Shown here one piece after another: positions 26,203 to 51,995 of a DNA stretch of 64,000 bases. The translations under genes and the position numbers were made by a program. Within the stretch, counting starts at the first letter, position 1. Every line of letters starts with the position of its first letter. Source of the stretch: Fragilaria crotonensis (Eukaryota > Bacillariophyta > Fragilariophyceae > Fragilariales > Fragilariaceae); contig JAKSYS010000126.1 of the NCBI GenBank assembly GCA_022925895.1, forward strand, positions 1 through 64,000, read 5' to 3'. The notes under the pieces are model-generated. The model had not been told where the DNA came from, searched no databases, and worked only from the letters and a program-made list of their open reading frames with translations.

Positions 26203-29200
26203 TGAAACCGACACTTCGCACACCGAAACACCCTCAAGGTCACCTCAATCAGCAAATGCAACACCTGGACCACTTCAGCGCATTTCTGACGCTTTTTCAA
26301 GCATCATAACGCCGAAAAACGCAAAAACACCTCACGTCCCGGCTACAACCGACTCGAACCCCAGCTACCCGGTTTTGACAACTTTTTCTACCGCGACCGA
26401 AAATATACGTTCCAAAAACCCATCACCTACGGATTCGAACCCCGTGCAACAAAATCCGTCACTAAATCCGTCGCTGCTCCCAAAACATGAGGACGAAATT
26501 CTTCAACCGTCGAAAATGTCAATACCCAAATCTACACAAAACCCCTCAATGACCGGAAATAAATCAACAAAATGACAAAAACTCAAAACCTTGAGTCCGT
26601 CAACAAACTCCGCGCCCGGCGACCCACGCTACCTTTTCCTATCCACCAACAATTGAAACATTCTTTGACAATGATACTGACCATGACTCTGAAGAAGATC
26701 CAAAACAGTTGAAGCCCACATCACCTGATGTGCTGACATCTTCCACCCGGACTGATTTCACCTATCCTCCGATTGAAGATCTAACAAAGACTCTTCTGAA
26801 GTACGCCAAAAATGCAAATCTTCGCAAACTGGCCTATCCAACAGATTTACAAGCCCGTCGACGCCATTTCAATACATTTATGGACAATCTCCGCATTGTC
26901 TGTAACATTTCCCCCTGGACTCGCCAAGTCTTTGATCTTTGGCCCCAACAAGTATGTTACTCCCATCCATTTGTTGGCACAGCCAGCTCTCTACAACTTG
27001 ATCTTCACCAACATCAGTGAACCCTGTCAAAAACACATCATTGATGGACCTCCAGATGCAAGAACTGCTATCTTCACCCTGCGTCGCCACTGTGCTCCCT
27101 TAACGCCAGATCATATTGAACGCTCGCGAAGCTTTTGCTCTATCAAACAACCGCACAACGAGTTGCTACTTCCTATCTTAACCGCATCCGCACCATCTCG
27201 CGTGATTGTTACCATGCTGGAATACCAAACTCTGATGCTGAACTGATTAAAGAACTGTCCGTGGAGAAGCAATCATTCCTTTTATGCTGCATCATACCAA
27301 CGTTTTGATGCCGACATTCGCGCGCCGAACTAAACGACGAAGCTCTGCCACAATTCTCCGAACTTGAAAGTCATCTTCTCAACATCGATGAATCCCGTGG
27401 TCTTACAATCCCATCTATGAGTCACCGCCACTTTAATCAACATGCAAACTCTGCACGCCAAACGACTTTCCGTCCACAACAAGGCACCACTGTTCGAAAC
27501 TTCACTCAACGACAACAACAAGCTTTCAGCTCAATCCTACGTCCTTATACCAACAATGGTGGAAACAACCCCACCCGACAACAGCATCGACAACACCGTG
27601 GACCTCCCTACCGAACGCCCAGCGACAAACCCGCATAACACCAACAACCACCGTCGCACCAACGCTCCGTCAACACGTCCATCAACGCAACAACAGCGTA
27701 CAAATCGACCACCTCTTCGTCAACTGCCGAATTCAAATCACCGCCCATCTACCAACGGTAACACTAACAATCAAAACCGCAACCAATCCAATGCTGCAAA
27801 CATTGTCTGCAACAACTGCGGCAGACTCGGTCACTATTCCCGCAACTGCACCAACCCCGCACGCAATGCAACTTCCAATCGAGGCCCATCCTCTCGATCA
27901 TCTTCGAACAATGAAAATTCCGCTCCCCGCAATCAACAACGAGCCTACTTTGTCACTGACTCAGGAGAAAACATGCAAGAAAATGTTTATCACCAAGCTT
28001 TCCGTGCTTCATCTCTTGACCCAATGGATGACACTCCTGACTCAATCCCTTGGCCAAACCCAGCCCTTCCCCAAATGGAGATCAACCAACACCTCCTTGA
28101 TCAAGACTTTCAACCTTCTGGCAATCACTCTCCTCCCAATTCTGGAGCCACAGACTATTTCCCTGATGACCCACAATCTCCTCATCAACGTTTTGGCCCA
28201 CCTCTTCTTGAAAATTGGCTTCCTGACAGTGGTGCAACCAGCCACTACACACCAGTCTTCAGTGACCTCCATGATGTCACACCCTGCAGTGTACCTGTCT
28301 CCCTTGCTGATGGCAGTACTAAATTGTCTACCTACAAAGGCACCACAGAATGTCCCTTCACTACTGATGATGGTATGAAATCCATCCTTGGCCTAACTGA
28401 TGTCTACTATGTTGAAGGCCTCAGCCATCGCCTACTTTCCTTGACCGCACTATCATGCACACAAAACTTCAGTGTCTTGATTCACAATCGTGCCACCACC
28501 ATCCAACTTCCAAACAATTCTACGTACACGTGGCCCATCCTACGCCGTGAACTACCACCACATCAAGCCTTCTCAGCCATCTCTTTACCCAATGTCAACC
28601 TTGAATCTGACTCTTCACCAGCAGAAGACCACTTTGCTGACACTGTTGACACCATCAACCCTGATCAACGGAGATCCGTAACCACTCTACCTCTTGAGCT
28701 TGTCGCTCGACGCCTTACCGCAATTTCCGAAATCTAATGGTTGGATCTCTTCACCAAACCTGGAATGACCATGTACTCTCTCAACCATTGATCCAAACAC
28801 TTGGCCTCTCCGTATATCTATCAGCCAAAAACGTGCTCGAAACAAGACCCGCAACGTGAAGGTACCGATCCCTTCCATCGACTACATCTTGACTTGATGC
28901 GCAACCCATTCCGTTATGGTCTTACAACAAACACCAACTATTCTGCCTATCTATTCATTGTCACAACACCTGGCAAACTTACTGGCTGGATTGGTCTACC
29001 AACTGAAAGCACAGCATCCATCATCACAGCCCTCAAGTCATGGCTGACCCAAACAGAACTCCTTGGCCGAACACAATCCGTCCGCTTCATCCGCACCGAT
29101 GCTGGAACCGCATTTACCTCTGCAAAATTCATCACTGAATGCACCAACCTTGGCATAAAAGTTGAAGCTGCTGCCCCAGAACATCAAGAAATGAACGGTA

Positions 29201-31950
29201 TCTGTGAAGCTAAATGGCGTGAAGTCCACAACACAGCCAATACCCTCCTCAACAATGCCCGACTTGGCGGTGCCTTCTTCCACCATGCACATGCCTATGC
29301 TGTCCACATTATCAATGTCTGCCCAGCCAAGAATGTCACTGACATCAATGGAATCCCAACAACTCCATATCAATTCAGCTACAAACGCAAGCCCAATCTA
29401 GGCAATTTCCGCGTCTTTGGTTGCCCAACCTTCTTCAAGCGTTATGAACCAACTTTCCGCAACAAGATCATTACCTATAAGCAGCAACTCCAACGCGCTT
29501 CCCGTGGTATATTCCTTGGATTCCCTGAAAACTCTGCAGGCTGGCTCATCTATTCTCCTGATCAACCGCAAAGCCTCATTATCACACGTGACGCCTACTT
29601 TGATGAAGACTTCAACTCTGCCCTATGCTTTGATTCAAAGCCCTTTGCTGGAGCTGTTCCTATACGCTCCCATTTCAATCCCAATGGCCTCCGCAACACT
29701 GCTGAAAACTCTGAACCTGCCACTTTTCACCAAACTGGCTCAGCCGCTGATCTCGGCAATCCTCCATCACACTTCCTTGATGCCTCGAACTCCCAACATC
29801 ACTTGTGGCACTTCCTGATGCCTCCCATAATGATGATCAACATGGCCCTACACCACCAACACCACACCAAGTGAACTACATTGGCCACCAACACTGCCAT
29901 TCCAATCTACAAAAGATGATGACCCTCTACTTCCAAGAGTGTAATGAAGATCCTCCTTCCATTGATCCCATTCACACTGCCATGCTCACCATTGATAATG
30001 CAACTATCAGTCAAGAAGAACCTGCTGAACCTGTTGACAAATACCTTCCTGAGCCACAATCTCTTAAAGCTGTCCTCAAACTTGATGATGACATACGCTC
30101 TGCCTGGCTACATGCAATCGCATGGAAATCAAGAATCTCATTGATCATGGCACATTCATCCTTGGACAAACTCCATCCCAAGCTGACCCTATCATTCCTG
30201 TCAAACTTGTTCTCAAAGCCAAACAAACAGCAACTGGCAAACTTGAAACTTAAAGCTCGCCTGGTGCCCGAGGCGACTTGGAGAAACGTCTTTTAAGAAA
30301 GCAAAGCCGCACATCAGCAACATCTCCTTCAACAGCGTCAAGACATTGCAATGCCATGCCTCCCAACACCAAAGTCCAACCAATTGAAATCCCTCAACCC
30401 TTTGAGGACACTTGGTCACCCTGTGCATCTTCAAGAGGGTCAAGCTCCTTCTCTCCACAATTTGTGCTTCCCAGCGACACTCAAAGTGCTGACTTTATTG
30501 GCGCCTACTTGCAAGCTAAAGTCATTGGCCGCCACTTTGTCAAGCTCCCATTGGAATATGCTTTTCATTTCCCTGAATATGCTAAATTCTTTGGCAAACC
30601 ACTTCTCCTGGACAAAGGAATCTATGGCCTTGTCTACTCTGGCAAATACTGGAACATTGAATTTTCTGAATGGCTATATTCCCAAGGTTTTATCCAATCC
30701 CAATCTGAACCATCCTACTTTGTCGATATGACAAACACAACCAATGGCTCCGCCTCCTTTTCTTCGTTGATGATATGCTGTATGCTGGCAGCAATGATTC
30801 CATTGAAAAACAATTTGAAGATTCCGTCAAAAACCGCTTGATGTCAAATTCCTTGGTCCTGCACAATGGTTCCTGCAAATGCGCATTCACCAGCACCAAG
30901 ACTCAACCTATACCTTGGACCAGCACCGTTATGTCTTGAACACCCTTCAACGTTATGACCCGAATTCCGATTCCCGAACGCGACACTCCATTCCCGCCAG
31001 ACTACACCTTCAGCAAAGAAAACCGTCCTGTCACAGAACAAGACATTGCACTTGTTGCACAAAAGCAGCAACGACTTCCCTTTTGCTCCGCGTCTGCACT
31101 CTCCTCTACCTGGCATACAACACCAGAGCTGATATCCTCTTTGCTGTCTGCAAACTTGCCAAAGCCTGTATTGCTCCTGGAATTCTTGACTTCCGTGCCT
31201 CACCTGGCTCATCGGCTACCTCGCCGCCGTCCCTACTATGCACTCAAGTTCTACCCTGATTGCACATCCAATCCTATCTATGAGATCTGCCTACAACATC
31301 GCATTCCTATGCTGATCTTACAGGTTTCTCTGATGCCAGCTGGCAAGACTGCCCAGACACTGGCCGCTCAACCATTGGCTACATGATCTTCCACAATGGA
31401 GCACTTATTGAAGCAAACTCAACCATGCCCACTCCAGTTGCCATGTCAACCTCTGAAGCTGAATACATGGCTGCATGCTCTGCCACCATGGCCACCGCTC
31501 ACATCCGCATGCTCCTCTATGACATGCTCTATCTTGGCACAAAACAATGGCGCGAATCCACCCAGCGTTTACCAACCACTCCTGCAATCTTAATGATTGA
31601 CAATGAAGCCACTGTCCAGATTGCCAAAAATGGCAAACTCACCCGCAAGACCCGTCAAATTGAACGACGCTTCCATTTTGTCCGCCAAGGCCAACAAGAC
31701 GGTATCCACCAACTTCACTGGATCCCCTTGTGACTATCAACTTGCTGATATTCTCACCAAGACACAACTTTCTGGCAAAATTGATCCACACCTCAAGAAG
31801 ATTCTCTGCATCCTACCTGACCACATGCTTTCTTCACCAACTTTGGGACCTGAGATCTGATCCAAGAGGGGTGATAGAGATCTACTGTTGCACCGTCATG
31901 AGTCGTCTGACCACTTTCCATCACAACACTAGCTCCTGAGAATCAGACCT
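26203..31950 (+). mobile_element. Copia-type LTR retroelement (CoDi-like), broken
   Basis: Parts in order: Gag N-terminal region; CCHC knuckle VCNNCGRLGHYSRNC (nt about 27805-27850); aspartic protease WLPDSGATSHYTP (nt about 28215); integrase with HLDLM, RTDAGTAF and the EMNGICEAKWRE Glu box (nt about 28880-29220) plus FRVFGCPTFF; RT region from about 30060; RNase H with STSEAEYMAA and MIDNEATVQIAKNG (nt about 31450-31640). Integrase before RT defines Copia. A purine tract at 31864-31871 precedes TGATAG at 31872, the likely 3' LTR start. The 5' LTR is absent: coding sequence joins the DIRS repeat directly. It is broken in roughly half a dozen places or more; age cannot be read from LTRs. Confidence 0.88.
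31872..31950 (+). repeat. Start of Copia 3' LTR, cut by the next element
   Basis: The sequence begins TGATAGAGATCTACTG right after the purine tract and runs 79 bp to the terminal inverted repeat of the large DNA transposon. The rest may continue beyond 41,797 but could not be confirmed without a second LTR. Confidence 0.5.
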
Positions 31951-31977
31951 CATCAGAAGGCCGCTTTTGTTAACTAT
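31951..31977 (+). repeat. Left terminal inverted repeat
   Basis: CATCAGAAGGCCGCTTTTG then TTAACTAT; matches the reverse complement of 41771-41797 with one difference. Confidence 0.9.
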
Positions 31978-32456
31978 GTCAAAAAATGGTTACTTTTTGG
32001 TCGTAAGTCATTAATATATTGCCTAATGTTAACATATAATAATCAAAAGTAAGTATAGTCTTATGATAACTGAATATTATAATTTATGTTTCTACAATGT
32101 TTGTTTCTTTCCATTGACGGTAAATAATAAGCAGTGAACATCTTCAATTTCCGATGAACATCGTTTTTTTTGTCATGGTAACTTAGACCATACTTCAAAC
32201 AGATATAGTAACATATCTCAAGGCGTCAAACCATACATAACATATTTCAATAAAATATATTGATATTCAAACATTTCTTTTTTACCATTCCATTATGTAC
32301 GACTTCGTCATGCTGATTGTTGGTATGTCGTTTGACAAGGGAATTATATTCTCACCACCATATCTGGCAGTTCTTAAAATATTACATTCGTCTGATCAAA
32401 GAATTGTGCTCGTATTGCAACACTCTTCACTCGTTGTCTATCTTTAATCTACTACT
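31978..32456. other. Left subterminal region of the transposon
   Basis: AT-rich, no gene. It contains copies and variants of the GGTAAC/GGTTAC motif (31987, 32168, 32207) also present at the right end, probable transposase-binding sites. Confidence 0.5.
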
Positions 32457-35400
32457 ATGTCGACATCACTTTCTGAGGATTGTGCTGTTTGTGGGAAAAG
32501 TTTCAAGAGGCTTGGTGCGCACCTTGTGCGTAGTTTGGCATGTGGTTCTTATTACATGCCACGCCGCGCTGACACAGATGAGTGTCGTGAAAGTGAAGGC
32601 GCTGATCATGGCACCCGTCCGAATTTGAGATCCTCTTCGTATAGCACTCTCTTTCGTGCACAACGTGCAACTGTAAGAGGAGAGGCGGATGACGAGCCGC
32701 CAATCATCAATGTGAATGGAGTTGACGACGAAGACTTTTTTGTGATGGATGACGATGATGGTTTTCCGAATGACAATGTTGATGAGGAGGATGTCCCCAG
32801 TGATGCAAGTGAAGGCGAGGAAGGTCCGGATGCCGGTGTTTTGGACTTGTATCTGAAACTTTTCCAGCTGCGAGATAACCCGCTAGGTCTTGCGCGTTTT
32901 TCTCGGGAAGAGGAGGTCTTAATTGAGTTATTGCAGCTCCTAAAGGAGCTCCATTGTCCACTCAAAGCGTTTGAGATCATACTCAAGTGGGCTGCAAAAT
33001 CAAATGGTAGTGGTCATACTTTCCGCGAGGGTTGTCAACCCAGTCGCAGCAAGGTAATCGCTAACTTGTACGAAAGGTACAACATGAACGGATTGATCCC
33101 GAAGGAGAAGAAATTGTACCTGCCTTACACCCAGAGAACAGTGTCCATGATTTACTTTGATGCCCGCGAAGTGTTTGCGTCACTTCTCTCATGTCCCACA
33201 CTTAATCAAGACGAAAATTATTTTTTTGACGACGCAAAGGATCCATTCATCGCACCACAAGCATCGTCTGATGTTGGCGACATCCACACTGGTCGTTGCT
33301 ACAGAAAGACATACGAGGCTCTAATAAAGAAGTTTGGCGTTGATATGCTGTTACCTTGCGTCATAGCAATGGATAAGACACATATCGATATGGCAGGACG
33401 GCTCCAAATGGAGCCCATAACAATCTCACACGGTCTATTGAATCACACTATGCGCCGCCTCCCAAGTGCCATGCGCATCCTTGGATACATCAATCACAGC
33501 ACCCCCCGCGCACCTCCCAACTAGCGCAGATGTTGATTCCGATTTCAATTCTCCAGAAGATCTGGCGGATGATGTTGTGCGAATCAAGAACCCAATTCAT
33601 CCGCCCGCCAACGGTGATCTTAGTTGGGCAACGTTACTCCTCAATGAAACACACATGCAGATTCAGTTTATACTCGAAGAGTCTGGATTTTTGATTCTAC
33701 AGAACAGTGGCTTCAAATGGAATTTGCATTACAACAACACCATTCACAAAGTGGTGTTCCACCCCCTATGTACCTTTCATCGTCGGCGATACAGAGGGTC
33801 ACGACCGTCTCTGTGGTCATTACACAGCAAGATTCATGGAGGTCAAACAGCTTTGCCGAATCTGTGAATGCCCCAGTTACTTGACGGGGTATTCGAAGTC
33901 AAAGTTCCCCCCACCGTCTCCCAAAAAAAGTTGATTCCTTAGTGCAGAGGGGCTTGACTGCTGAGCTCCAATCAATGTCTCAGAACTATCTCAAGAACGG
34001 GTTTGAAGGCGTCCGATTTGGCATGCACAATAAGCGCGGAATTTTTGGTGCGTGCCCAGGCGAAATGCTGCACTTGATCTCGCTTGGTTGGTTTAAGTAC
34101 TGCCTCCAGGCTTTCTCGGCTCAGGCCGGTCCCAAGTCCCAGGCATTGAAGGATTACGATGCACTGTGCGCCAAGTTGGGCTGCACCCTATCAAGGCAGA
34201 GTGACCGTGATGTTCCACGAACAAATTTCTCTCGAGGTTTTTCCTCTGGCTCCAATCTCATGGGACACGAGATGGCGGGATGCCTTTTGGTGAAACTATT
34301 CGCATTGCACACGACGTGTTTCCGCTCCATCTTCAATGTTGGCAAGAAGGTCACCCCAAAAGAAGGGGTCAACGATCAAAGGCTATGTTACAGCAATCAT
34401 ATCGAAGATTGGATAGTTGTCGTATCCTCCCTCCTGGTCTGGCACCAATGGATGAAGCAGCCAACAATCCCGAAAAAAATGGTGAGGCGCTCCCATGTTG
34501 CTGTGCAGTGGTTGATGCGGTTTGTCGCTGAAGTAGCACCTCGTCCTTCAGGCATGGGAAATAACACCATCAAAACGCACTTGGTCCTGCATCTGTGCGA
34601 GGACATTCTGGACCATGGGGTTCCAGAGAACGTGAACAGTTCGTACGCTGAATCAGCCCACATTCCCCCTTGCGAAGATAACAACAAGAAACTCGCAGAA
34701 ACGAGCTGTTTCTTTCACAAAACAAGCAGCCCATCGGTACGTTGAGAATCTCGCTGTATCACTTGCTTGGGCAGATGTTGAGAGCGACAAAAGGCAGTGC
34801 CATACCAACATCAGGGAAGAAGAACCAGAGAGAGGAACCAGCAACCATCAATTCGACCCTGGACGTGAATTCCACCTTGTGTGGAAAACTGGTGATGAAT
34901 TCCCTCGTGTCGTTGGACACATGTGCGTAGCGGTCAGAACGCAGAGCCAGTCGTGAAACTTCCACCTTTGGTGTCAAAGTTTCTTGAAACTTCTGCCTGC
35001 CCCAAATGCCACAACAGTCTCTTCGGTGCTTTACCTCGTACACAGATGAAAGGGGTAACATGTACCGAGCACATCCATGTTATGACGGTAAACCTTGGAA
35101 TGATTGCGCAATGATCGACTGGAAAGGGGAGAAGCATGACCTTCCAGCATTCATCCATACATTCGTTGATCTGCGCCAGCTTCCGAGCTCAATCAGAAGA
35201 ATTGAAGTGAATGGGCAGACAAGTGTGCAACCTGGATTGTACGCCGTTGCCCACACCTTTGACCCAGTTAACCCCACCGACTTCAACACGCCCAATGTCC
35301 TCATAGGGCGTTACAAACCCATTTTATTCTCCCGACCACAGACAACCAACATTGTTCCTTGTGGATGTCAAGGCGATATCCTCGCCGCTACTTGGCACAG

Positions 35401-35762
35401 AAGACATCCCACCATTTGGAGAAAAGAAAGCGTCAAGGTGGGATCGGCATTACCTTTTCCTCATCAGAAGGAAAGTGGAATGGTCCCTTGCATGGGACGC
35501 AATAATTGAGCGGGAGCATAGTGATCTGGAAAACAATGTTGAAGATGACACCTGGTTCGAAGAGGATTACGAGACAAAAGATGTTGACCACCATGTCTTG
35601 CCCGGTGGTAGAGTCGTCTTCGGCGTGAAGACACCCGAAGACAACGCCAAGGAGGTGGCAGCAAAGAAAGCAGAAAAGCTTGCCACCAAAAAGAAGAAGG
35701 AAGACGAAGCAGCGGCCAAGAAACGCAAACGAGCTGCGGGAAGGGAGAACGTTCGCAAGTAG
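32457..35762 (+). CDS. Plavaka/CMC-like DDE transposase
   Basis: The ATG at 32457 opens a protein with an N-terminal zinc finger CAVCGKSFKRLGAHLVRSLAC, the single finger typical of Plavaka-type transposases, then an acidic linker. The core shows VIAMDKTHIDMAGRLQMEP (first Asp), VGDTEGHDRLCGHYTAR with the CRICECP cluster (second Asp; nt about 33790-33890) and GACPGEMLHLISLGWFKYCL (nt about 34050-34110). The C-terminal part has YRAHPCYDGKPWNDCAMIDW and AFIHTFVDLRQLP, a small beta-rich domain seen at the end of CACTA/Plavaka transposases, and a Lys-rich tail. Total near 1,080 residues, usual for the group. Frame changes occur near 33520, 33760, 33940, 34740 and 35450; some could be introns but no strong splice sites were found. 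It cuts and joins transposon ends in the nucleus. Confidence 0.78.
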
Positions 35763-35790
35763 TAGACTTATTTTTCACGTTCTTCGTTTT

Positions 35791-38216
35791 TCAATAGTAA
35801 CGTGCAGGTCTTCTTGCCCCCGTACTTCGTCCTCCTGGTAACAACGAAGCGGTTAAGTCAACCGCCGCAGTAGCCCCCTGCACATCACCAGCTCTTTTTT
35901 TTCTTGGTACCGTGTATGCGCCACCAATTGCCAGGTCAGCTGCTGTAGGCTGTCTAGGTACGGCCTTTCGTTCGCCATCAACACCACCCCCATTCGCAGA
36001 GGTCCCCATTCCTGGCTCCACTTGCGGTTTCCTCTTTCTCCCAACAAGGGAAAGCTGTCGAGACACCGTGACAACGTGCTTCGGCAAGCGCACACTGATG
36101 GGCTCGACAGCAGCTGCTTCAAGGGTGGCTGCCGTTGCGATCACCTCGTCTTCAATTGGGTTTTGGGCAACCGTCAATTCATCCCGGTGTTTCCGGCGGC
36201 GCCGACGTTTTCGGTTCAAGCGCTTCTTACTGGGCACCCTTTCCCTCCAAGGATCGGGTCGGAGAACAGGCCGATAATTCGCAGCACACCCAGCACGTCC
36301 AGCCTGAACGATCTTTTCCTTGGCGCAGGTGAACACCCCGTAGAGGGTGTTCACGAAGGATGTAGAATCCTTTGCAACACCAACGTAACCGCTGTCCAAG
36401 CCATCAGGACATGAAACAGACGTGCAGTGCCTTACAATCCTGCCATCCCAGCTGATCGCGATTCCGTGGCCAAGTTTTATGGCCAAACCAGTGAACTTGG
36501 TTCCATTCGGTCGCTTGCCTTCAACATTGGGCATGATGAAGTACCAGTTCTCCCCCCAGCCAAGCATCTCCTCTGTCCAACAACTGTACCCCTGCGAGGC
36601 ATCGTTAACGTCAAAGTGAGACGAGTTACCCAGGTTATAACTCAGGTCGATAGTGTACGCAACCCGTCGCCGACGCTCCAACACCGCAAGCAGCCCCTGA
36701 TTTTCCTGCTTAGGAAATCCAGGCGGCGGGCGTTGGCGGTATTGGCCTGCGTCTTCTTGGCCTGGGCATCGGCCAACAAACGAGCAGTGATGAAGAGATC
36801 ATCATCAACAACGCCACAGTTGTAGTTGCCGCCGTCATCCCCATCATCGTCATCATCATCGTCATCGTCGTGCCGTCGTCGTCATCGCTGTCGGAGTCGT
36901 CCCAACCAAAGGCAACGCCATCCATTGGTGCCACCGGGCTCAAGCCAGAATTCACCTCCGTGTCTCTTATCACAGAGTACACCTGGGGAAGCAACAGCTC
37001 CCGACATCCGCCAAGTCCACCACAAGCCCGCGGACGACATCCTCCCCAACAATCGAGTTTGCAGCGTACGGAACCTTGTCGTGGACAGCGGGACAATCGA
37101 CAGAATCGCCCTTCTTCACGGTGATCCTGGTCCCAATTGCAATCATCCCCCCAACATCAGAAGACTTCGCCCTCGCAGTGCCCTTCCCACCGGCAAGTTT
37201 AATTGCACTGCACCTCTCCGTAAGCTCATCCAATAACTGCTGTCGATCATCACGGGGGTCCATTTTCCCAACGTTCCTCACCATGACAACCGACACCCGA
37301 TCCGGGATCTCGTCGATGGCGATGTGCACGTCAACGAAATGATGCACGTTGGGGTCAATAATCCAGCAAGACTCCGGAAGGTCAGTGTGACGGGCCCCGT
37401 CCACGTAGTGCCGACAACCCTCCCTTGCACTGGAGGAAGCCTTCAGCCGGTCAAGGTATTCGTGGGCGCGGTAGTCGGAAGGAACATCCCGATAGTCCAT
37501 GCCGCCGATGAAGTCTGGGGGGGAGCAGGGGCAACTCTCCATCCCCTCCCTGGCTTGCCCGGTATACCAACCGTACCTGCTGACCCGGGAGCACTCGCCC
37601 AGTCGAGAGCCTCCACGCTGACACTTGACGGGTACCACAAGGCAATGTGGTATCAGAATAAAACCGCTGCACATAGCTGTCATCACCAAAGGTGTACGAT
37701 GGCAAACAGTGCTCCGATTCAGTCCTGACCAAGCGAAGCCAGCTCATGTCGTAAGCCCTCAATGTGCCCTGCAGTCCAGCATCACCAGCGTGGCGATCAC
37801 GACTGCAGTAGAAGACCCCACACTGGGGTAGGAAGAGGATCACCGCCCTGAACTGGTAATCCCCATCCGGTGCCCCATCGTCAGGGATGTACGACTGGGC
37901 GTGACAAACCGCATGGCCGCCGCCCGATGCAGCAGTCAAAGGAGCCGACCGGCGGTTCACGATAACGTCCATAACGTAGAATTCGTTCAAAAAATTGGAC
38001 TGCATCCCCGATTCGGGGGAACATGTCCGCAATTGAACGCAGTCGGAACGGCTCCCACCCAAATGCAGTTGCAACCACACGGATCGGCGTCCGACCACCC
38101 AAGAACCCACCGACCAGCCCGCACTCCCCCGGCGCACTCGCCTTCTTCGCACGTCGGAACCGTCGCCGGAACGCACGCCTTTCTTCCGGTACGACAGCCA
38201 TGGACAACAGCGACAT
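35791..38216 (-). CDS. Transposon-borne protein with 2OG-Fe(II) dioxygenase-like domain
   Basis: Opposite strand to the transposase, tail to tail, 28 bp apart. The C-terminal domain (nt about 36300-36690) reads RRRVAYTIDLSYNLGNSSHF then DVNDASQGYSCWTEE, NWYFIMPNVEGKRPNG and KLGHGIAISWDGRIVRHCTS. HFD supplies an HxD pair and the later His an iron-binding triad, as in double-stranded beta-helix dioxygenases; the GxAISWDGRxxRH strand resembles the TET/JBP/AlkB type. The expected 2OG-binding Arg/Lys is not obvious. The upstream 500 residues are of unknown fold, with SYIPDDGAPDGDYQFRAVIL and HFVDVHIAIDEIPDRVSVVM as the most conserved-looking strands, and an Asp-run linker. A basic Arg/Lys tail (NRKRRRRRKHR) may be a nuclear signal. 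About three frame interruptions. The likely role, if active, is oxidation of a base or a protein side chain. Confidence 0.55.
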
Positions 38217-39768
38217 AACCGACGAGGAGTCGGAAGACTCTCTCTTGTCCCACGCCTGGAGGAGGCGATTCCGCCCCGTCCACGATTGCCTGCGACCCCA
38301 AAACACGGGGCGACTGCCCTAGATTCCGAACGGACATCGCAGTCGGCATCGTCCGGTTCCCCGCGGCACCCTTCTCTTCGACAACGTCGAATCTACCCTT
38401 CCCGACCGCCAACCCCGTCGACTGGATGACATTGTTCGGCCTTCTCCTGCTGCCTGGCAGGTAAGGTCCGCGCGACGCCACTTCGTTCGACAAGAATGGG
38501 ATGGTGATCACGCACCACGACGAGGAGACAACCCAACACCAGACCAATGGCAACAGTCGCGAGCGCGTCCTCCTCCCGTACTCTTCGTCCACAAAAACGA
38601 CAATCAACCCGCTGCCTGGCGAGGACTGTGCAGTTGTTGCAGAAGAAACGCACGCGGCAAGAAAGGATCGACAACAACGCAAGACCACTGACAACAATTG
38701 CGAGCGCGTCCTCCTCCCCGTACTCTTCGTCCACAAAACGACAATCAACCCGCTGCCTGGCGAGGACTGTGCAGTTGTTGCAGAAGAAACGCACGCGGCA
38801 AGAAAGGATCAACAACAACGCAATGATCGGGCGAGAGGCTTCATTGAATGTTCTGATTCAATGGAGGTAATGGTGCAATTCTGGTGTCAGAAATTGCATA
38901 CCAGGCGCATACGACATGGTACACACAACTCTAAGGGACTCCACACCTGGGACTTTATTGCAAGCCCTCTAAATAAATTCGATTTTTATCTAACAAATAG
39001 ACGCTATATTTATTTATGATACGGATATGTGGATTCGATATTAAGTCAATAGTACTTCAATGCAAATACACCAAAACCATTGAACAACACAGAACACCAA
39101 TATTTCAATAAGTGCGTTGACTTTATTATGCATGTATAATATATTACTTTCCCAGGACCGTAGTATGCACTGTAACAGCGCTACAATACTACACTGTACA
39201 TTGTGTAAAATTGCGCACATTTAGGAATCTTGTATCCAAAGTCATCATGTCATGTATCATGCTGCCCTAAGTACAACAAGTCACATGTATAGAATTTTTG
39301 GCTATGTATAGCATTTATAAAAGTATATGAATGGAATGTATTTTTAGTCGCCAATAACAAGATTTATTGACGTGATTGAAACGCAGGACACTGCAACTTA
39401 TACCATTACGTGTACAACGATGTACACAGTACCTAGTATGATGCATGACACCGAGCGAGTACAGTCCATGTGTACCATATATGTATTTGAAAAGCAATAC
39501 ATATCCATATAAGATCATAGAGTAAAAACGGTGGATTATGTATTAAATGTGTATGTACATTCAAACAAAATAAAAGCATACAGTGTTGTAGTAAATTGAC
39601 ATGTTTGGGATAAAAAGATACGATATAGTCGTGTAAAGTGAACTTCAAGCAAACATAATATTGCAATAATTGATCCATCTCTCATTTTCAATTGATGCGA
39701 TCTAAAATACAACTTGTTGCTTTCGCTAACACTTCGTCTTGTTGCTTGCTCTATTCCCTTTTGTCAGC
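38217..39768. other. Transposon spacer with a 124-bp tandem duplication
   Basis: It holds the duplicated block 38559-38682 and 38700-38823 (offset 141) and otherwise AT-rich sequence without a recognised gene. The GC-rich part (38220-38860) probably contains the 5' end and promoter of the minus-strand gene. Confidence 0.5.
38559..38823. repeat. Direct duplication, two ~124-bp units
   Basis: GCGAGCGCGTCCTCCTCC at 38559 recurs at 38700, and the match runs to the GGATC(G/A)ACAACAACGCAA ends with only a few differences. A 17-bp spacer separates the units. Confidence 0.85.
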
Positions 39769-41452
39769 ATGTCAAATCCACAGAATCCTGCTCTAGCATC
39801 GCCATCTCAGAACCTTCGGAGTTCTTCGCGACGCATTCGCGAACCACCAGCTGACCAAACACCCGTTCGCGAAACACCGTTGGAGCGTGCCGCAAAGGAG
39901 AGAGGCAGAGACGAAGAAGGCTGAAAGACGTGCAGCTAAAGCAGCTAAGGCAGCTAAGGCAGCTAAGGCAGCTGAGGCTGCTGAGGCAGCTAAGGCAGCT
40001 AAGGCAGCTAAAGCAGCGGAAGCTGCTGCAGCAGCAGAGGCAGCGGAAGCTGCTGCAGCAGCGTCTACGCAACGGAAACGAGTTGTTGGCGCGGGGAACA
40101 AGAGGAAATATAGACAGAAAAAAACAAAGGAGTCCAAAAAAACGAAAACAACAAAAAGTGCATAACACCTCGTCAGATTCTGGCGACATTGAGTCGGCGG
40201 ATGATGATTCTTGTTTTGAACCCACCGATGGCGCTGAAGACGAGGCTGATGATGACGACGACGACGACCAGGCTGATGACGACGACAATAATGATGACGG
40301 GGCAGAAATTGATTCTTACGTTTCAGCAAACTCATACCTTGACGACGACCCATTGGCATCGCCGGAGGAAGGTAGGCGCGGTGCCCGCGAAGCTACTGAA
40401 GAGTCGAGACGCAGTGCCCAGGCAGGCGCAGTGAATCCTCTGAGGACAAGCAACAGCGAGGAACACGGTACGCCACCTCCACCACCGGCGAGAGCTGATT
40501 CCAGGGAAATTGTTAGCAGGATGCCGTTGGAAGCTCCAACAGCACAGAAGAATGTTGTACGGAGGATTGTTTTGTTTGTTAAAAAACACACTCTTCCGTC
40601 AGATCAAATTCGTTACCAGTACCAAGTCATTTAACGAAGCTTTTCAAAAGGTGCTGGCGGAGGAAAGGCCACGGAATCCATACATATTTCAGTTGACGTA
40701 CCAGAATTCGTTCAAGACGGCCTTGAATCAGAAGCGAAGTACGTGTGAGTTGTCTGGCAAAAAAGATTGTGGTCAAAGCTATCAATACAGTGTTCAAGAA
40801 TCGTGAAGAGGAATTCTTCACTTTTGATGAATTCTGCAAGCTAAGACGAGCGACTACCGAAAGAGAGAGGAAAGCGTTTCTCTGGTTCTTCGACAGTTTT
40901 TTGGAGTGTGTTTGCGGGGCTACCGCATGGAATAATGCGAAAACAAAGCAGCTCGTTTCGGAGGCGAGAGACCCCAGTGGATCAAAAATTGTCAGTGTGA
41001 GTGATGAAGCATTTGCGTTGTTGTTAATTGACAATTACTTGGAAAAGTGGAAAACCAGGGCTGGTGAAGAAGTCGCAGCCCGCATCGACTCGGTAGCAGG
41101 TGGCGCAGCTGCAATTGCGACTGAAGGTGAGGAGATCACGAGAAGGAAACAAACAAAGACAGCCGGTAAATACACTGGAAAAGCTCAAGGACAGTGTAAG
41201 TGGGGTGGCTGGAGTCCCGAAGGCATCAAACAGTTCAATTTTCTTCGCAAGTTAGTGAAAGCAGACAGGGAGGCTGACAAGAATTGTGACGACGAGCCGA
41301 AACGGATGGAAAAGTTGCTGATGGATTTCTGCCGGACAAAGGCCGGAATAAAGGACCCACAGGATAACGCAAACCTAGACGGTGCTCACAACAATGCAGC
41401 GGCACGGGCAATGGAGAATGTTGAGGCAGAATGGGACTCTGATGACGACTAG
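39769..41452 (+). CDS. Transposon accessory protein, unknown function
   Basis: The ATG at 39769 starts MSNPQNPALASPSQNLRSSS. Then comes a tandem array of about a dozen 9-bp units (GCAGCTAAG and variants, nt 39932-40055) encoding an Ala-Lys/Glu repeat that should form a long charged helix; then a Lys-rich block, a long Asp/Glu tract (nt about 40190-40310), and a conserved-looking C-terminal domain with RATTERERKAFLWFFDSFL, KTKQLVSEARDPSG and QCKWGGWSPEGIKQFNFL. Frame changes near 39920, 40165 and 40640. No catalytic motif is seen. By position it is comparable to the second, DNA-binding protein of CACTA elements, but that is only an analogy. Confidence 0.5.
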
Positions 41453-41797
41453 GAGTTTGTTTTACTGCCATCCACTTTAAAATGCAATAGAATGACTTTC
41501 GTATGAACAATATCTGTTGTATTAAGATGAATAACCTAATCAATTAATCAACATAAAATGTAACTATGACTTAACATGAATTGCATAATTACAATATATA
41601 TCGTTGACTTGAGTAAAAATAAATGGTAACTAAAGCGTGCTTTATTTTGAGATAAATTATCCAAACTTACAATATATAATAGAAGTAGTATTTTATTGTT
41701 CAAGTTACCATTTCTGTTAATAAGTAAAATCTAACTGATAAAAAAATGGTAACACTTAACACCAAAGAAAATAGTTAACAAAAACGGCCTTCTGATG
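41453..41797. other. Right subterminal region and terminal repeat
   Basis: AT-rich. ATGGTAAC/GTTACCAT motifs at about 41623, 41704 and 41746 precede the terminal inverted repeat at 41771-41797. Confidence 0.6.
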
Positions 41798-42085
41798 CTC
41801 TTGTCCCGCGTAACCATTTGAATTTGAGATGCCATCCGGCCTAATGTAGATGCCATCTCATTTCTACGTACCGGTCTACACACACGACCCCTGGTACTAA
41901 ATCGGATGCCATCTACATTAGCCTCGGAGTCTCATCTGCACCTCACTTTTTCATCATTTGGTTCCCCCCACTTCTATTCTCATTATTTTCCATCTACTAA
42001 ATTGTTTATCACCCAAAGTAAAGGCCTTTACTTCCCTCCTATTGTTTCACTACATATCTACACATTTGTACTACTTCCATTCACC
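41798..42085. other. Flank right of the transposon
   Basis: No gene. CCTAATGTAGATGCCATC near 41838 has an inverted, imperfect partner near 41910-41925 (GATGCCATCTACATTAG). This may be the continuation of the Copia 3' LTR or a separate small repeat. Confidence 0.4.
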
Positions 42086-42839: not shown

Positions 42840-44740
42840 TGGACGGTTGGGATGGGCTTGGTACGTGGAACAGGCACGACGGGGCAGATCCAACCTGGCA
42901 AACGCCGTACCCTCCCTACCCCACAAGGCTGCTCGTCTCTTGCAACATCTTCGGAAATGGGGGGGCCAGTGTGGTGGCCTCCCCTTCACCATGAGGACGC
43001 CACGCTGCACCAACGCCCAATAGCGACCAAGGGAATTATGACCGAGGATGACCGAAATTGAAACGGCCCTAGTTTTGCACCCAGCCGAGAATCCTCGGTC
43101 ATAATTCCCTTGGTCGCTATTGATCAGTCGCTCAAGATCCTCATAAGTCCTACCAGACTGAATGCGAGTTCGTCGCAACCGAGATCTTTGATTTTTGTGC
43201 ACAATGATATTGGGCGGTTTTGCATTGCCCAATTGATGATTGCTCCCGAGGATAGTGGATTATCCCCGTGGTGAATGACCACACCACACCGTTGGTGCCC
43301 AAAGCGTCAATGCAATTTGGGAGGCACTCCAACATGTCCCATTGTCCATGCAGATTCCAGCTATGATGCTGGCATTGTCGGTCTTACCAAAATCAACATT
43401 GCTGACTGTTTTTATTGGGTATGAGTCCAGATCTCAATATTGTCACAAAACTGGGTGTGGTCCTGTCCACAGCGCCTGATCAACCGCAGCTGATGGTGGT
43501 TTTCCCCTTACCGCTTCCAATGGGCTTGGTGGAATCCCGCCCACCCTTCTTCACTGCCATCACCAAGATGGTGTGCAACCTTGCTAACACCATCCTGCGT
43601 CATTGCTCACTGCCCAACTGCTGTGCCTTCTCAATGCATGTTGAAGGGAGCATGAGGGATAAATATATTTGGCCTACTAAAACTTTCCTGCACGGTTTGA
43701 ACCCATGTCCTCATCATGGAGGTGCACCAGGAATTAAGCCACAAGGCTAAGGACCAGTCCTCTCTACTCTGGGCAATCTTTTCTTCTGTGCCAAGCTATC
43801 CATCACTTGCTTGCCAGCACCAGAACCCCTCCACTTGCTTCAAATCTTTGCCTAATTCTTGCTTGCTGGCACGCTTTGCCCCCCCCCGTCACGGACCCGT
43901 TTGCACTTGCTCAGTGGAAGACAGGGTCCGAGCCGTGTGGCAGGTGTACGTCGGGATGGGGTCCGAAGCAATCCTTGCGTAGACGCTCACGGCAAATTCA
44001 ATTTTTGTCTCAGCACGTCCCTGCACAAGTCTTGGACCCGTGTTGATGAACCACCCTCCCGTGTCAAGCCATTGCCCTTCTCCTCACCCACTTTGTCACC
44101 ACACTTGCTCACCAAGATGACACTCCTTGGCACTTGCCGCATCCGAGGAGTACCTTGTCTTTGGCAGGTTCTACATTGGCCCCTGGATTGGCACTTGTGC
44201 ACTTGGATCTCCTTCACTGTCATGTGGTGAATCCCCAAGCCCCCACGTTCACCACCGTTACCTTCACCTGCCAGAAGAACAGCATCCGTAATGAGACTAT
44301 CAGCCATGGACGCAGTGGGCATACGCGGCCTTGTCACATCCTGCTGTGCTTGGTTGATCTCGGTACTTTGTTGCGGGGGCTCAAGGACCCTCCATCCACA
44401 CCACTTAACGCCTACAGCATGGCGCCTGCTAGCCCCCCTTTCGCTGCTACGTCCTGCTGTCCAGTGACATCACCCGCCGCCTTAGCGTCGCGTTTCCCTG
44501 TTCCTGGACCCGTCCTACCTCCACTCCGACGTGTCCGCCCGCCATACACGGGCCAGCAGGACCACGGCGCTTCTGTGCGCCATGGTCGGCAGCCACCACA
44601 TTCGGCTGGTGGGGCGGTGGCTTTCTGAAGAGCTCTCCCGCTATCTCCACAACCAAACCAAACCCGTCATCATGTCAGGTCTCTTTGCCGCCATGCTAAG
44701 TGGCAGCAACAAATGGTCAGGTTGCCCCTGACTTACCCGC
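42840..44740 (+). mobile_element. Second YR retroelement relic (RT plus tyrosine recombinase), degraded
   Basis: Plus-strand RT traces: SLPHKAARLLQHLRK (nt about 42915-42960), LTKINIADCFYWV (the first catalytic Asp region, nt about 43385), and LPMGLVESRPPFFTAITKMV (nt about 43525-43580). These resemble an RT family I know from diatoms, with ADGFYR and ESPPYFTALTE signatures. Near 44540-44700 comes a tyrosine-recombinase end: ARHTRASRTTALLCAMVG (HxxR) and IRLVGRWLSEELSRYLHNQ (GRW box and Tyr). RT followed by YR on one strand points to a DIRS/Ngaro-like element of a different lineage from the young one. The spacing is much shorter than normal, so internal sequence is missing, and it is broken in many places. 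Old. Confidence 0.6.
43019..43121. repeat. 103-bp perfect fold-back
   Basis: Arms 43019-43049 and 43091-43121 (31 bp each, AATAGCGACCAAGGGAATTA...) are perfect reverse complements around a 41-base loop. It sits inside the RT-side of the relic. The perfection contrasts with the decay around it. Confidence 0.95.
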
Positions 44741-48447: not shown

Positions 48448-49403
48448 GCTACTGACTCCTAGGCCCTTCGTGTCCTACCAAAGACGACCAAGTAAAAAGG
48501 AGCGTCTGGCGCTGCCCACAAATGCAGCACTACACTTTGCCAAGGATAAAAACACCTAGCCCAGATAATTATTTCGCTGCACAAATCGAGGTGAATCAGG
48601 CTTGCCTATATCGCTCTCTGTTCTGTGCTCTCTATATCTCCAGTCGGGTACAAGTATTGTGCAAGTAGGGCGTGATAGCGTTGTGCATATATGATAGAAT
48701 TTGCTTTCCCCCTAAAATTTATGACGTCGACACTTACGCGGCATCACTCGTGCTGCTGATTCGTAGAAATTGGGAAGGGAATTGCTCACTCGAACCGAAA
48801 ATTGTCCTCGTTTTCCGTAGGTTTCTACTTACATCTAATTTTTATAGAAGTTACTACGTACGTTCTTTTTGGAAATCAGTACCTGGTACTCAACGCACGC
48901 ACTCACACTACTTGGGAAGGCCCTCCTCGCAAATCGCAACTCGCTACTCGTAGACGCGCAAGTCGCAAGTTTATAATTATGTCGAAGTGTATACAAGACT
49001 GGCGTACTTGAGTACGTACAATGAACTCCTGAAGTCCACGAACTTGTGCATACAGTATGTACGATACGATGTAGTAGTACTCTCTAGGTCGAGCACCATC
49101 ATATGCATACATGTACATTGTACATACTTGGATGCTCAGTGTGCATAGGTACTCCGGCACTCTACTACGCATTTCTATCGCAGTTAGCAGGTACAGTACC
49201 GATTGGAAGTCATTCTCTACTTTGTGTGGTCGGAAGTCGGAGGGTGCATTCTTGACGCACCTGTACTTCCAACATCCCGAGCAGTCGCTGAAGAGGTGAT
49301 AACGTTGTTTATGATTCTGGCCATCGAAAGATTTCATTTGAGACTAGTGTGATTTATTATTGTGTCTTTTGAGGAGGACGCCGACTACTCCTTATTTGCA
49401 ATC
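48448..49403. other. GTAC-bearing spacer upstream of the PHD gene
   Basis: No gene. GTAC-type palindromes concentrate at 48840-49200. The last 100 bp are the probable promoter and leader of the plus-strand gene. Confidence 0.6.
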
Positions 49404-51995
49404 ATGGACGTGGCCCATGATGGTACGCAACCAAGAGGGCTTTTAATCGTAGGTCAAACTCATTGCACTCCGTTGCTGACAGACACATCAAATGATGATC
49501 GAATTGTTCAGGAAACCAACCCTTCAATCAATGCCCATCAATTATTTGAATCCGCTGATGATGAGCAGATACACGTGTCAACAAGTAGATTCGAATGTGA
49601 CATTGCCAAGGGGGATGTACCACCAAGATTCGAAACCGATTCCGAAAATCAGGGTTCGGTAGTGCTTCAATCGAGTTCTGAACGGCGCGCTGTAGCGGTG
49701 AAAGTGGACATTAGTGAAAGCGTGACCGGTTCAAAAGAGCACAGAGTTTCAGAGAACAAGCCTAACCAAGTTTCCTCGAGGGCTTTCTATACTAGTGAAG
49801 ACATGCGTGCCGTCGCACGACGAACGCAGCATGGGTGGGTCAACGCATCTCACAGAGATATCTTATTTGGGCTGTTCCTTCACTCCGATGCATCGGATCT
49901 TGAGGATTTGGCAAAAAACACGCGTGTGCGCCTTCTCGGGAAGACCACCGCCAAGTGCAAATCAAGTCGAGGGCATGCCTTTGGGAGTGAGAAACAGGAC
50001 ACGTCTCTTCGTTCATCCCCGTTGTCTGTATTATCTCTCGTTCCTCTGGCTTTGTCAAAATCAGCACTTTCTTTGTCTAGTTGCGACGAAGCCCGGTCTG
50101 GCATTGGTCAGAACCGTAGTGACTTCCAACGACCTAACCTTCAAAGGCTATCGCTGTCGGAGCTCGAAGCCAAAGTAATTGCAAAGTTTGAAATCAGCTC
50201 TACTGGGCAGAGTGCAATTGCGACAGAAAACCCCCAATATGCATGGCTCTTCAACCAGATTGGCAAGGAATTATCGCGACCGCTTGTTCCGCAGAAGACG
50301 AAGAGGTTCACCGCCATGCCCATACAATATAACGAATGTTCAATGAGTGCATTTGCAAAATGGGCCTTTTCGTCTCCTGATACCCACATGCGCAAGGAGG
50401 ATGTAGTGGGTCCACCTGGTGCAATGGGCACTGACTTCCCTTCGTCTCCTCCAATGTTCCACTTCTGTCACATATGCAGACATTGGGGGCACTTCGAGCT
50501 AGATTGTACAGATTTATCTCGATCAGAGCTACGGACTGTGTTGGATGTGGAAGCGACTGCGTGTCAAGGTCTGCATGGAATGGAAGGGCACTCTGACATC
50601 GGCAAAAAGGAGTACTTGAGATCATCGAGACCACCAGCTTCTTTACCTCGAGGATGTGTTTTTTGTAAATCGTGTTTGCCGGCGCCTACACTTGTTTGTA
50701 ATGAGTGCGCGTCCCTCTGCCATCCCGGATGTGTGGAAGCCCCTTTAGAGCGAACATATCTAGTCGAATGGTTGTGCCCTTCGTGTGAAACGAACGACAA
50801 GAGCAGAGAACTTGACTCTGTGGTGGAGTTAGAAGGTTGCGAAGGGTATGTTATTGAGCAAAGGAATCTTCCATGTTATCTTTCAGTGGGCGGTACTCCG
50901 TCAAAATCTCGCGGAATATCCTTCAACGAGAGATCATGGTCTAGAGTAATTGCAATTTTGGACAACAAGGTGATGACAATCGCCCCGAAACCTGCAGAAC
51001 CAAGCACTGTGGCATCAAAGAGTGTTAATGAGAAACAATTGCTTCCTGTCGGAGAGTTCTGTTGGGCGAAACGACAGCACGCTTCAATCGGGACAATTGG
51101 TCGCGATGAGTGGTGGCCGGCTCAGGTGATTGGAATCGTGGCAAATGATTTGAGACAAATCTCTGGTGATTCGGTCGAGGTGACGCCATACTTGGTCAAG
51201 ATGCTCGCCGTTAGTCGAGCTTCTCGTGTGCGAGCGACATCAACCCTTCCTTTCCTAACGAATTTTCGAACTGTTGGCTACAGGAGGTTGTCTCACCGAA
51301 AGAACTCTAAATCATACGTGGAAAAGAGGTTTCGTATTGGAGTTCAGGAAGTGATCGAAAAAATGGGTTTCAAAACAATTCATAATGCGTTGACTGAGAT
51401 TGACGAGCTCCTTAAAACAAATCAGAATCCTGAACACCAAATGTCGCCGCCGGCGAAGCGCGCCCTTCCTTTAAAGGATCAGAATTCTGAGCACAGTACA
51501 TCGCTGTCTTCAAAACGTGCCCGTCCGGACAGCGAAGTTGCCACCTTCAAGCAAGACGGGTTCGTCATACGTGCTCGGATCTCAGGAAAGTCCGAAGAAA
51601 TGCTTGGCGCGACCCAGCATGAGAGCTGCGACCTCGGTCGTGGGATCCAAAATTGTGCGAAGGTTTATTCCCGAACAAAGCTCACAGGTTGTCTAGTTGC
51701 TTGGCTGTCAGTAGACCAACCTGATGTTCAGATGAGAGTTGGAACCATTCTCGCTGCTGACATCGAAGCCAAGATGGCGCTTGTGAGTGCTATTCCCCAG
51801 TGGGAAACCAAGCTCAGGCCCGCGCGTTCTAATAACGGAGTCGTCCTCTGTGCCTACCAAACCACAGCATCGGTATGGATGCCCATGCATAAACTACATA
51901 TGATCTCCAATGGACCAGAGAGACACTACGAACGTGAATTATCACAGACATTCGTTGACGAAATGCTGGAAAAGCTCAGTGTCCAGTCAAAATAG
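49404..51995 (+). CDS. CCHC, PHD-finger and PWWP-like protein, candidate chromatin reader
   Basis: 863 residues in one exon. The open frame extends 14 codons upstream without an ATG, so the ATG at 49404 (ATCATGG context) is chosen. The N-terminal 350 residues are low-complexity, Ser-rich and probably disordered. A CCHC-like knuckle CHICRHWGHFELDC lies at about 355-368. The PHD finger, about 416-462, has CVFCKSC, LVCNECASLCHPGCV and VEWLCPSC in the C4HC3 order. A PWWP-like segment, about 548-642, begins VGEFCWAKRQ and has WWPAQVIG and YLVKMLAVSR. Basic stretches (KRALP, KRARPDSE) near 683-711 could be nuclear signals. PHD and PWWP modules read histone tails; DNA or nucleosome binding is inferred. 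The frame is fully open, in contrast to genes in the left block. Confidence 0.75.
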   Translation: MDVAHDGTQPRGLLIVGQTHCTPLLTDTSNDDRIVQETNPSINAHQLFESADDEQIHVSTSRFECDIAKGDVPPRFETDSENQGSVVLQSSSERRAVAVKVDISESVTGSKEHRVSENKPNQVSSRAFYTSEDMRAVARRTQHGWVNASHRDILFGLFLHSDASDLEDLAKNTRVRLLGKTTAKCKSSRGHAFGSEKQDTSLRSSPLSVLSLVPLALSKSALSLSSCDEARSGIGQNRSDFQRPNLQRLSLSELEAKVIAKFEISSTGQSAIATENPQYAWLFNQIGKELSRPLVPQKTKRFTAMPIQYNECSMSAFAKWAFSSPDTHMRKEDVVGPPGAMGTDFPSSPPMFHFCHICRHWGHFELDCTDLSRSELRTVLDVEATACQGLHGMEGHSDIGKKEYLRSSRPPASLPRGCVFCKSCLPAPTLVCNECASLCHPGCVEAPLERTYLVEWLCPSCETNDKSRELDSVVELEGCEGYVIEQRNLPCYLSVGGTPSKSRGISFNERSWSRVIAILDNKVMTIAPKPAEPSTVASKSVNEKQLLPVGEFCWAKRQHASIGTIGRDEWWPAQVIGIVANDLRQISGDSVEVTPYLVKMLAVSRASRVRATSTLPFLTNFRTVGYRRLSHRKNSKSYVEKRFRIGVQEVIEKMGFKTIHNALTEIDELLKTNQNPEHQMSPPAKRALPLKDQNSEHSTSLSSKRARPDSEVATFKQDGFVIRARISGKSEEMLGATQHESCDLGRGIQNCAKVYSRTKLTGCLVAWLSVDQPDVQMRVGTILAADIEAKMALVSAIPQWETKLRPARSNNGVVLCAYQTTASVWMPMHKLHMISNGPERHYERELSQTFVDEMLEKLSVQSK

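Follow-up and report, generated by a model that had tools for sequence, protein, structure and literature searches.

Does a DNA transposon of a silicifying alga carry, next to its transposase, an oxygenase that might protect it from silencing by its host? The question is raised by a stretch of 64,000 nucleotides (in the following, the window) from a genome of 62.1 Mb in 881 contigs. An element of 9.85 kb (positions 31951-41797) harbors three genes, which encode a transposase, a dioxygenase-like protein and a third protein. The element is a complete-ended DNA transposon of the Plavaka type (Plavaka/CMC, with PlavakaB-like ends). Our favoured reading, to which we assign a probability of roughly 0.6, is that the locus represents a decayed Plavaka-type copy with an Fe(II) oxygenase-like cargo, that this cargo has moved between Plavaka and Mutator-like lineages, and that it likely counters silencing.

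Termini and classification of the element

The element is bounded by terminal inverted repeats (TIRs) of 27 nt that are complementary at 26 of 27 positions (96%), and its termini read CATCA..TGATG. Together with a CT target site duplication (TSD) on both flanks, the TIRs confirm the complete-ended DNA transposon that a preliminary description of this DNA, made from the letters alone, had proposed. Both flanks were inspected for eight copies, namely C33 (the window copy), C508, C392, C156, C1, C295, C529 and C30. A perfect 2-bp TSD is found in seven of them (CT, GA, AA, AT, AG, CA and TC), the exception being C1 with TG versus CG. Two flanking dinucleotides match by chance in only about 1/16 of cases; the ends are therefore considered real. 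The termini CATCA..TGATG are also met in the copies C529 and C30. PlavakaB elements are defined by these termini and a TSD of 2 or 3 bp (PMC12730594), and the window element, C529 and C30 show both hallmarks. In the genome, the first 200 nt of the element have 18 matches and the last 200 nt have 21.

The classification is supported by the transposase. The open reading frame (ORF) 32448-33524 matches the Pfam family PF18759 (Plavaka) with an E-value of 6e-7 and 29.4 bits, above the curated cut-off of 26.3, in agreement with the Plavaka/CMC-like transposase of the preliminary description. The corresponding scores are 31.8 bits for C529 and 30.5 bits for C30, whose transposases are about 52% identical. 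In C529, all three genes are read as unbroken ORFs (1155, 741 and 578 amino acids) between matching ends; copies of this kind were among those that the preliminary description had suggested to look for.

Pairs of element ends that are only about 2.5-2.8 kb apart occur at six places (C476, C197, C182, C445, C458 and C87:218188). These look like non-autonomous deletion derivatives.

Conserved gene order

The element belongs to a family of copies whose gene order is fixed. At least 128 matches to the C-terminal ORF of the dioxygenase-like gene, at least 157 to the transposase ORF and at least 170 to the third-gene ORF (40727-41452) are found in the genome. Locus counts given below are lower bounds; pieces were merged at 1500 bp, and some second pieces of listed loci are omitted. 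A first comparison yielded 110 merged dioxygenase-like loci, 47 of which have a Plavaka transposase within 6 kb, without exception (47 of 47) on the expected side and strand. For the third gene, position and orientation relative to the dioxygenase-like gene are as expected in 46 of the 50 pairings. When a divergent member served as query in a second search, the set grew to at least 158 dioxygenase-like loci, a number that omits further places matching only the N-terminal part. At no fewer than 65 of the 158 loci the nearest listed Plavaka transposase is located within 6 kb, and all 65 pairs are oriented tail-to-tail on the expected side and strand. By chance about three such neighbours are expected, as estimated from at least 108 transposase loci in 62.1 Mb.

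Carriers beyond Plavaka

The dioxygenase-like gene is shared between transposon superfamilies. Nine copies for which no Plavaka transposase is listed (C87, C592, C20, C76, C131, C471, C659, C63 and C108) were inspected at their flanks, and each of them has a transposase on one side (at C131 via the second Mutator-like query alone). C592 harbors a Mutator-like transposase of 985 amino acids (PF10551, E = 6e-12). Transposases of this type are found within 6 kb at nine of the 158 loci, the nearest being tail-to-tail in every case (9 of 9). C87 harbors a different Mutator-like transposase (PF10551, E = 4e-9), which is adjoined by an Ulp1-like ORF (PF02902); a DEAD-box helicase gene is located on the other side. 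This second type is found within 8 kb at 20 of the 158 loci, 18 of them head-to-head, with a spacing of 3.4-4.0 kb in 16 of the 18, 0.7 kb in one, and 7.9 kb in one doubtful case (C873). Two Ulp1-like protease ORFs (PF02902; L092:2260-3768 and L096:2679-3821) are seen in or beside Mutator-like elements that carry the dioxygenase-like gene. A third, weaker Mutator-like type occurs at C63 and C108 (PF10551, E = 0.0045 and 0.007, below cut-off). At C471 (23% identity over 719 residues, E = 5e-36), C76 (E = 1e-11) and C659 (E = 4e-15), the dioxygenase-like gene adjoins a distant relative of the Plavaka transposase that has no PF18759 match in Pfam. Altogether, at least 97 of the 158 loci (65 + 9 + 18 + 5) are tied to a transposase.

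Two copies of a Mutator-like element (MULE), in C20 and C346, have both breakpoints in common. Their inverted repeats measure 35 nt or more and enclose the dioxygenase-like gene. A TSD, TGCG at either end, might be read in C346 if one G is assigned to the flank; none is seen in C20. The encoded proteins are alike across carriers over most of their length: compared with the C529 protein, the values are 48% over residues 45-624 for C592 and 44% over residues 10-632 for C87. Mapped on a tree of 48 domain rows, of which two bear the label MULE, the carriers require 10 changes, with long branches present; one row (C193) owes its MULE label to a domain identical to MULE-linked copies and not to a MULE neighbour. 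Like the TET/JBP genes of fungi (PMC12730594), the gene seems to be a cargo that different superfamilies exchange.

The HxD...H domain

The C-terminal ORF of the dioxygenase-like gene (35791-36798, minus strand) contains the motifs SSHFDVND and GHGIAISWDGRIVRHC, which together form the HxD...H arrangement. Conservation was assessed on the 48 domain rows, which derive from 73 loci; the remaining 25 loci have no row of their own, their piece being either below 100-105 residues in length or a duplicate of a row already included. Wherever the positions are covered, the arrangement is intact, in support of the preliminary description: all 46 rows that cover it have the His of HxD, all 47 the Asp and all 48 the distal His. 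The Arg of a WDGR motif (48 of 48) and a Lys near the end of the domain (46 of 48) are likewise conserved. The distance from the Asp to the distal His is 61 positions. The HxD...H pattern, this spacing and the order of the likely strands are in line with Fe(II)/2-oxoglutarate (2OG) oxygenases.

The domain is under selection. The ratio of nonsynonymous to synonymous substitution rates (dN/dS), reported for pairs of 70-99.5% identity, is 0.05 for C85 versus C131, 0.10 for C108 versus C286, and 0.07-0.18 in more distant comparisons. Apparently the protein remained functional as the elements proliferated, and decays in copies that are dead. The dioxygenase-like protein is probably an oxygenase of the Fe(II) type.

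Several observations weigh against this assignment, and against the favoured reading as a whole. No credible match for the dioxygenase-like protein is found in Pfam, PHROGs, NCBIfam or PDB. A single-sequence AlphaFold2 model of the window domain has a pLDDT (predicted local distance difference test) of 34.5, and the strands within its residues 51-90 are suggestive at most. No conserved Arg is seen after the distal His, where the 2OG-binding Arg is usual; the conserved Lys follows further on (by eye). In alignment A2, which comprises 21 rows, 24 columns are invariant; H, D and H make up three of them and are thus not conspicuous by themselves. The dN/dS values scatter in closer pairs and reach 0.91 within the window's own subfamily, which fits decay. 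Finally, 61 of the 158 loci are without a tie to a transposase, and for five of the 97 tied loci the link depends on one flank each, with a transposase that is weak or has no match in Pfam.

The database searches also returned a few candidates, all of which were taken as chance. The Pfam families RCDG1 (E = 0.036) and FAM221 (E = 0.045) are below cut-off or partial. The alignments to arenavirus glycoproteins (best E = 0.043) and to p-aminobenzoate synthase (E = 0.37 in one search and 0.014 in another) in PDB do not preserve the whole HxD...H. Relatives outside the genome were found neither in viral contigs (queries: window ORF, C529 protein, A1 alignment), nor in genome contigs (A1), nor in phages (tblastn with the C529 protein).

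Proposed function and alternative explanations

In the favoured reading, the transposase moves the element by cut and paste, leaving the 2-bp duplication. The middle gene encodes a protein of about 740 residues, whose C-terminal domain of about 130 residues most likely holds an Fe(II)-dependent, 2OG-oxygenase-like site (His-x-Asp...His). The gene would be an element-borne cargo transferred between Plavaka and Mutator-like lineages, and its enzyme would likely maintain expression of the element by oxidising a mark, on DNA or chromatin, that serves silencing. For the cargo protein we infer Fe(II) binding, fold, substrate and the anti-silencing role alike. The latter is plausible, and gains indirect support because the gene is common to unrelated transposon superfamilies: a gene that benefits carriers whose transposases are unrelated is hardly a component of a single transposition machinery, and more probably acts on a target common to these carriers, such as silencing. 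The host genome has 13 pieces matching C5 DNA methylase over cut-off, which provides a plausible mark to fight, and DNA methylation in diatoms has a literature record (PMC4247016, PMC9998398). Dioxygenase cargo on fungal DNA transposons has been linked to escape from methylation. A more specific version is tentative, with somewhat less than even odds: a new transposon-borne family of Fe(II) enzymes, unrelated at family level to TET/JBP, would have spread as cargo among the Plavaka lineage and several Mutator-like ones within one diatom genome, and would serve all of them against silencing.

The protein might instead be a non-oxygenase accessory of transposition (a factor that binds DNA or metal, for example) whose H, D and H have a structural role or take part in a different chemistry. 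Many other polar columns of A2 are strongly conserved (D7, N14, D22, E32, D74, R76, R79 and K116), the C-terminal tail is basic, and the gene adjoins transposases in the neighbourhoods examined, all in line with such a role. We nevertheless regard it as unlikely: the HxD and the distal H at 61 positions suit the oxygenase pattern, and the sharing with Mutator-like elements, which belong to another transposase superfamily, argues against a Plavaka-specific part.

The preliminary description had suggested a possible diatom counterpart of transposon-borne TET/JBP-type dioxygenases. The protein would then be a true family member, a diverged 5-methylcytosine (or thymine) dioxygenase as in the TET+ Plavaka elements of Agaricus and Gymnopus; this is a special case within the Fe(II) oxygenase assignment, and in our judgement a doubtful one. 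Arguments for it are the spacing within HxD...H, a stretch at the distal His that resembles TET2 (noticed by eye and weakly recovered by profile), and the existence of TET+ PlavakaB elements in fungi (PMC12730594). The profile scores of the human TET2 stretch, which was picked post hoc by eye, are nonetheless weak, with 2.8 bits against A2 and 2.1 bits against the 48-row profile; equally high scores are reached by 27 and 37, respectively, of 5000 shuffles. The Tet_JBP profile PF12851 matches none of the 15 members of A1 or the 21 of A2 (a search of the genome with PF12851 gave no match, but the controls of that search were equally silent). The Arg that follows the distal His in TET2 has no clear counterpart. 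In the PE-type transposon TET of fungal Plavaka, HxE replaces HxD (PMC12730594), whereas HxD is found here in all 47 covered rows.

That the dioxygenase-like gene is not a cargo but its own mobile unit inserting beside transposases could explain why it adjoins several transposase kinds in one genome, but is highly improbable: the gene is enclosed by TIRs in four elements (those of the window, C295, C529 and C30) and by the ends that C20 and C346 have in common, with side and strand nearly fixed per transposase type.

Relation to known systems

TET+ Plavaka elements (PlavakaB) are known in Agaricus bisporus and Gymnopus confluens (Kojima 2025, PMC12730594), and fungal DNA transposons with TET/JBP cargo comprise 11 lineages (PMC12730594). 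The elements described here resemble the TET+ Plavaka of both fungi in the Plavaka transposase, the termini CATCA..TGATG, the 2-bp TSD and the dioxygenase-like cargo. They differ in the silicifying host, in HxD instead of HxE, in the lack of detectable TET/JBP similarity, in the presence of a third gene, and in about 500 N-terminal residues without a family match. As with the fungal TET/JBP genes, one cargo family is found on unrelated transposon superfamilies within one genome (PMC12730594). In contrast to these genes, the carriers include Mutator-like elements, which are absent from the 11 lineages named in the introduction of PMC12730594, and the enzyme family of the cargo described here is unrecognised. 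In non-fungal hosts, Plavaka transposases have been described from the green alga Auxenochlorella (PMC12636532) and from Amoebidium (PMC11244446). Unlike here, the passages on these elements name no dioxygenase-like cargo; the Plavaka neighbours in Amoebidium are repeated genes, many of them for tyrosine recombinases (PMC11244446).

With human TET2 and other Fe(II)/2OG oxygenases the protein shares the HxD...H and, by inference, the strand order around the distal His. It differs from TET2 in that there is no significant sequence match and no clear counterpart of the 2OG-binding Arg.

The host, which the preliminary description took for a diatom, is a silicifying alga and probably just that: the genome has 19 matches to the silicon-transporter family, 18 of them over cut-off, compared to one of 14 control genomes with a match, below cut-off. 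In the open-access literature searched, no paper on Plavaka or on dioxygenase-like cargo in diatoms was found; the two papers that mention both Plavaka and a diatom concern a mushroom and a green alga (PMC9674265, PMC12636532). Transposon-borne TET/JBP cargo in fungi is already known. New to the searched record are the Mutator-like carriers, the host and a cargo protein without a recognised family. Such an arrangement in an alga that silicifies, with a protein that cannot be recognised as TET/JBP and that Mutator-like elements also carry, would suggest that transposons have repeatedly been armed with oxygenases across distant eukaryotes, and the unbroken copies supply a concrete protein with which the idea of a cargo oxygenase can be tested.

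Genes of the window copy

The features of the window copy are listed in Table 1. The three adjacent genes noted in the preliminary description are all present, but none is intact: aligned to the C529 proteins, the transposase falls into seven pieces, the dioxygenase-like gene into four and the third gene into two. The alignment of the dioxygenase-like gene begins at residue 129 of the 741-residue C529 protein, with the 5' end of the window gene located further upstream. The breaks are most likely frameshifts. Introns are unneeded as an explanation, because the C529 copy reads each gene as one ORF. Over 9888 aligned columns, the window copy and C295 have 98.4% identity, and their ends are the same (C295 is the sole copy compared at full length). 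This suggests a fairly recent copying, followed by decay.

Table 1. Coordinates of the element and its parts within the window.
Feature	Position	Strand	Remarks
Left TSD copy, CT	31949..31950		same duplication size in 7 of 8 paired copies
Left TIR, 27 nt, CATCAGAAGGCCG...	31951..31977	+	96% complementary to right TIR
Plavaka-type transposase gene, broken	32457..35762	+	start codon placed by eye; PF18759 on ORF 32448-33524
Dioxygenase-like gene, broken, tail-to-tail with transposase	35791..38014	-	alignment to C529 protein of 741 amino acids
Core HxD...H domain	36298..36666	-	HxD codons within 36610-36618; distal His 36427-36429; alignments A1, A2, 48-row count
141-bp unit, two copies	38534..38823		upstream of aligned part of dioxygenase-like gene
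Third, accessory gene, broken	39769..41452	+	start placed by eye; conserved part 40522-41446
Right TIR, 27 nt	41771..41797	-	21 genome matches to last 200 nt of element
Right TSD copy, CT	41798..41799		dinucleotide read at both flanks

In its unbroken form, the third gene encodes a protein of 578 amino acids (L047:7452-9188), which is basic at the start, acidic in the middle and conserved towards the end. It has no Pfam match, and is perhaps a DNA-binding accessory of the transposase.

Surroundings in the window

The remains of a copia-type retrotransposon (27421-31733) are located directly upstream of the element. The ORFs in 27421-29874 match zf-CCHC, Pol_BBD and SH3_retrovirus; later ORFs were judged by eye. 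An ORF of 880 amino acids (49353-51995) has a weak PHD-finger match (E = 0.00047, below cut-off). The right end of the element is adjoined by a pair of 23-nt inverted repeats (87%, 41841-41921), and a perfect 32-nt inverted repeat with a spacer of 41 nt is found at 43018-43122.

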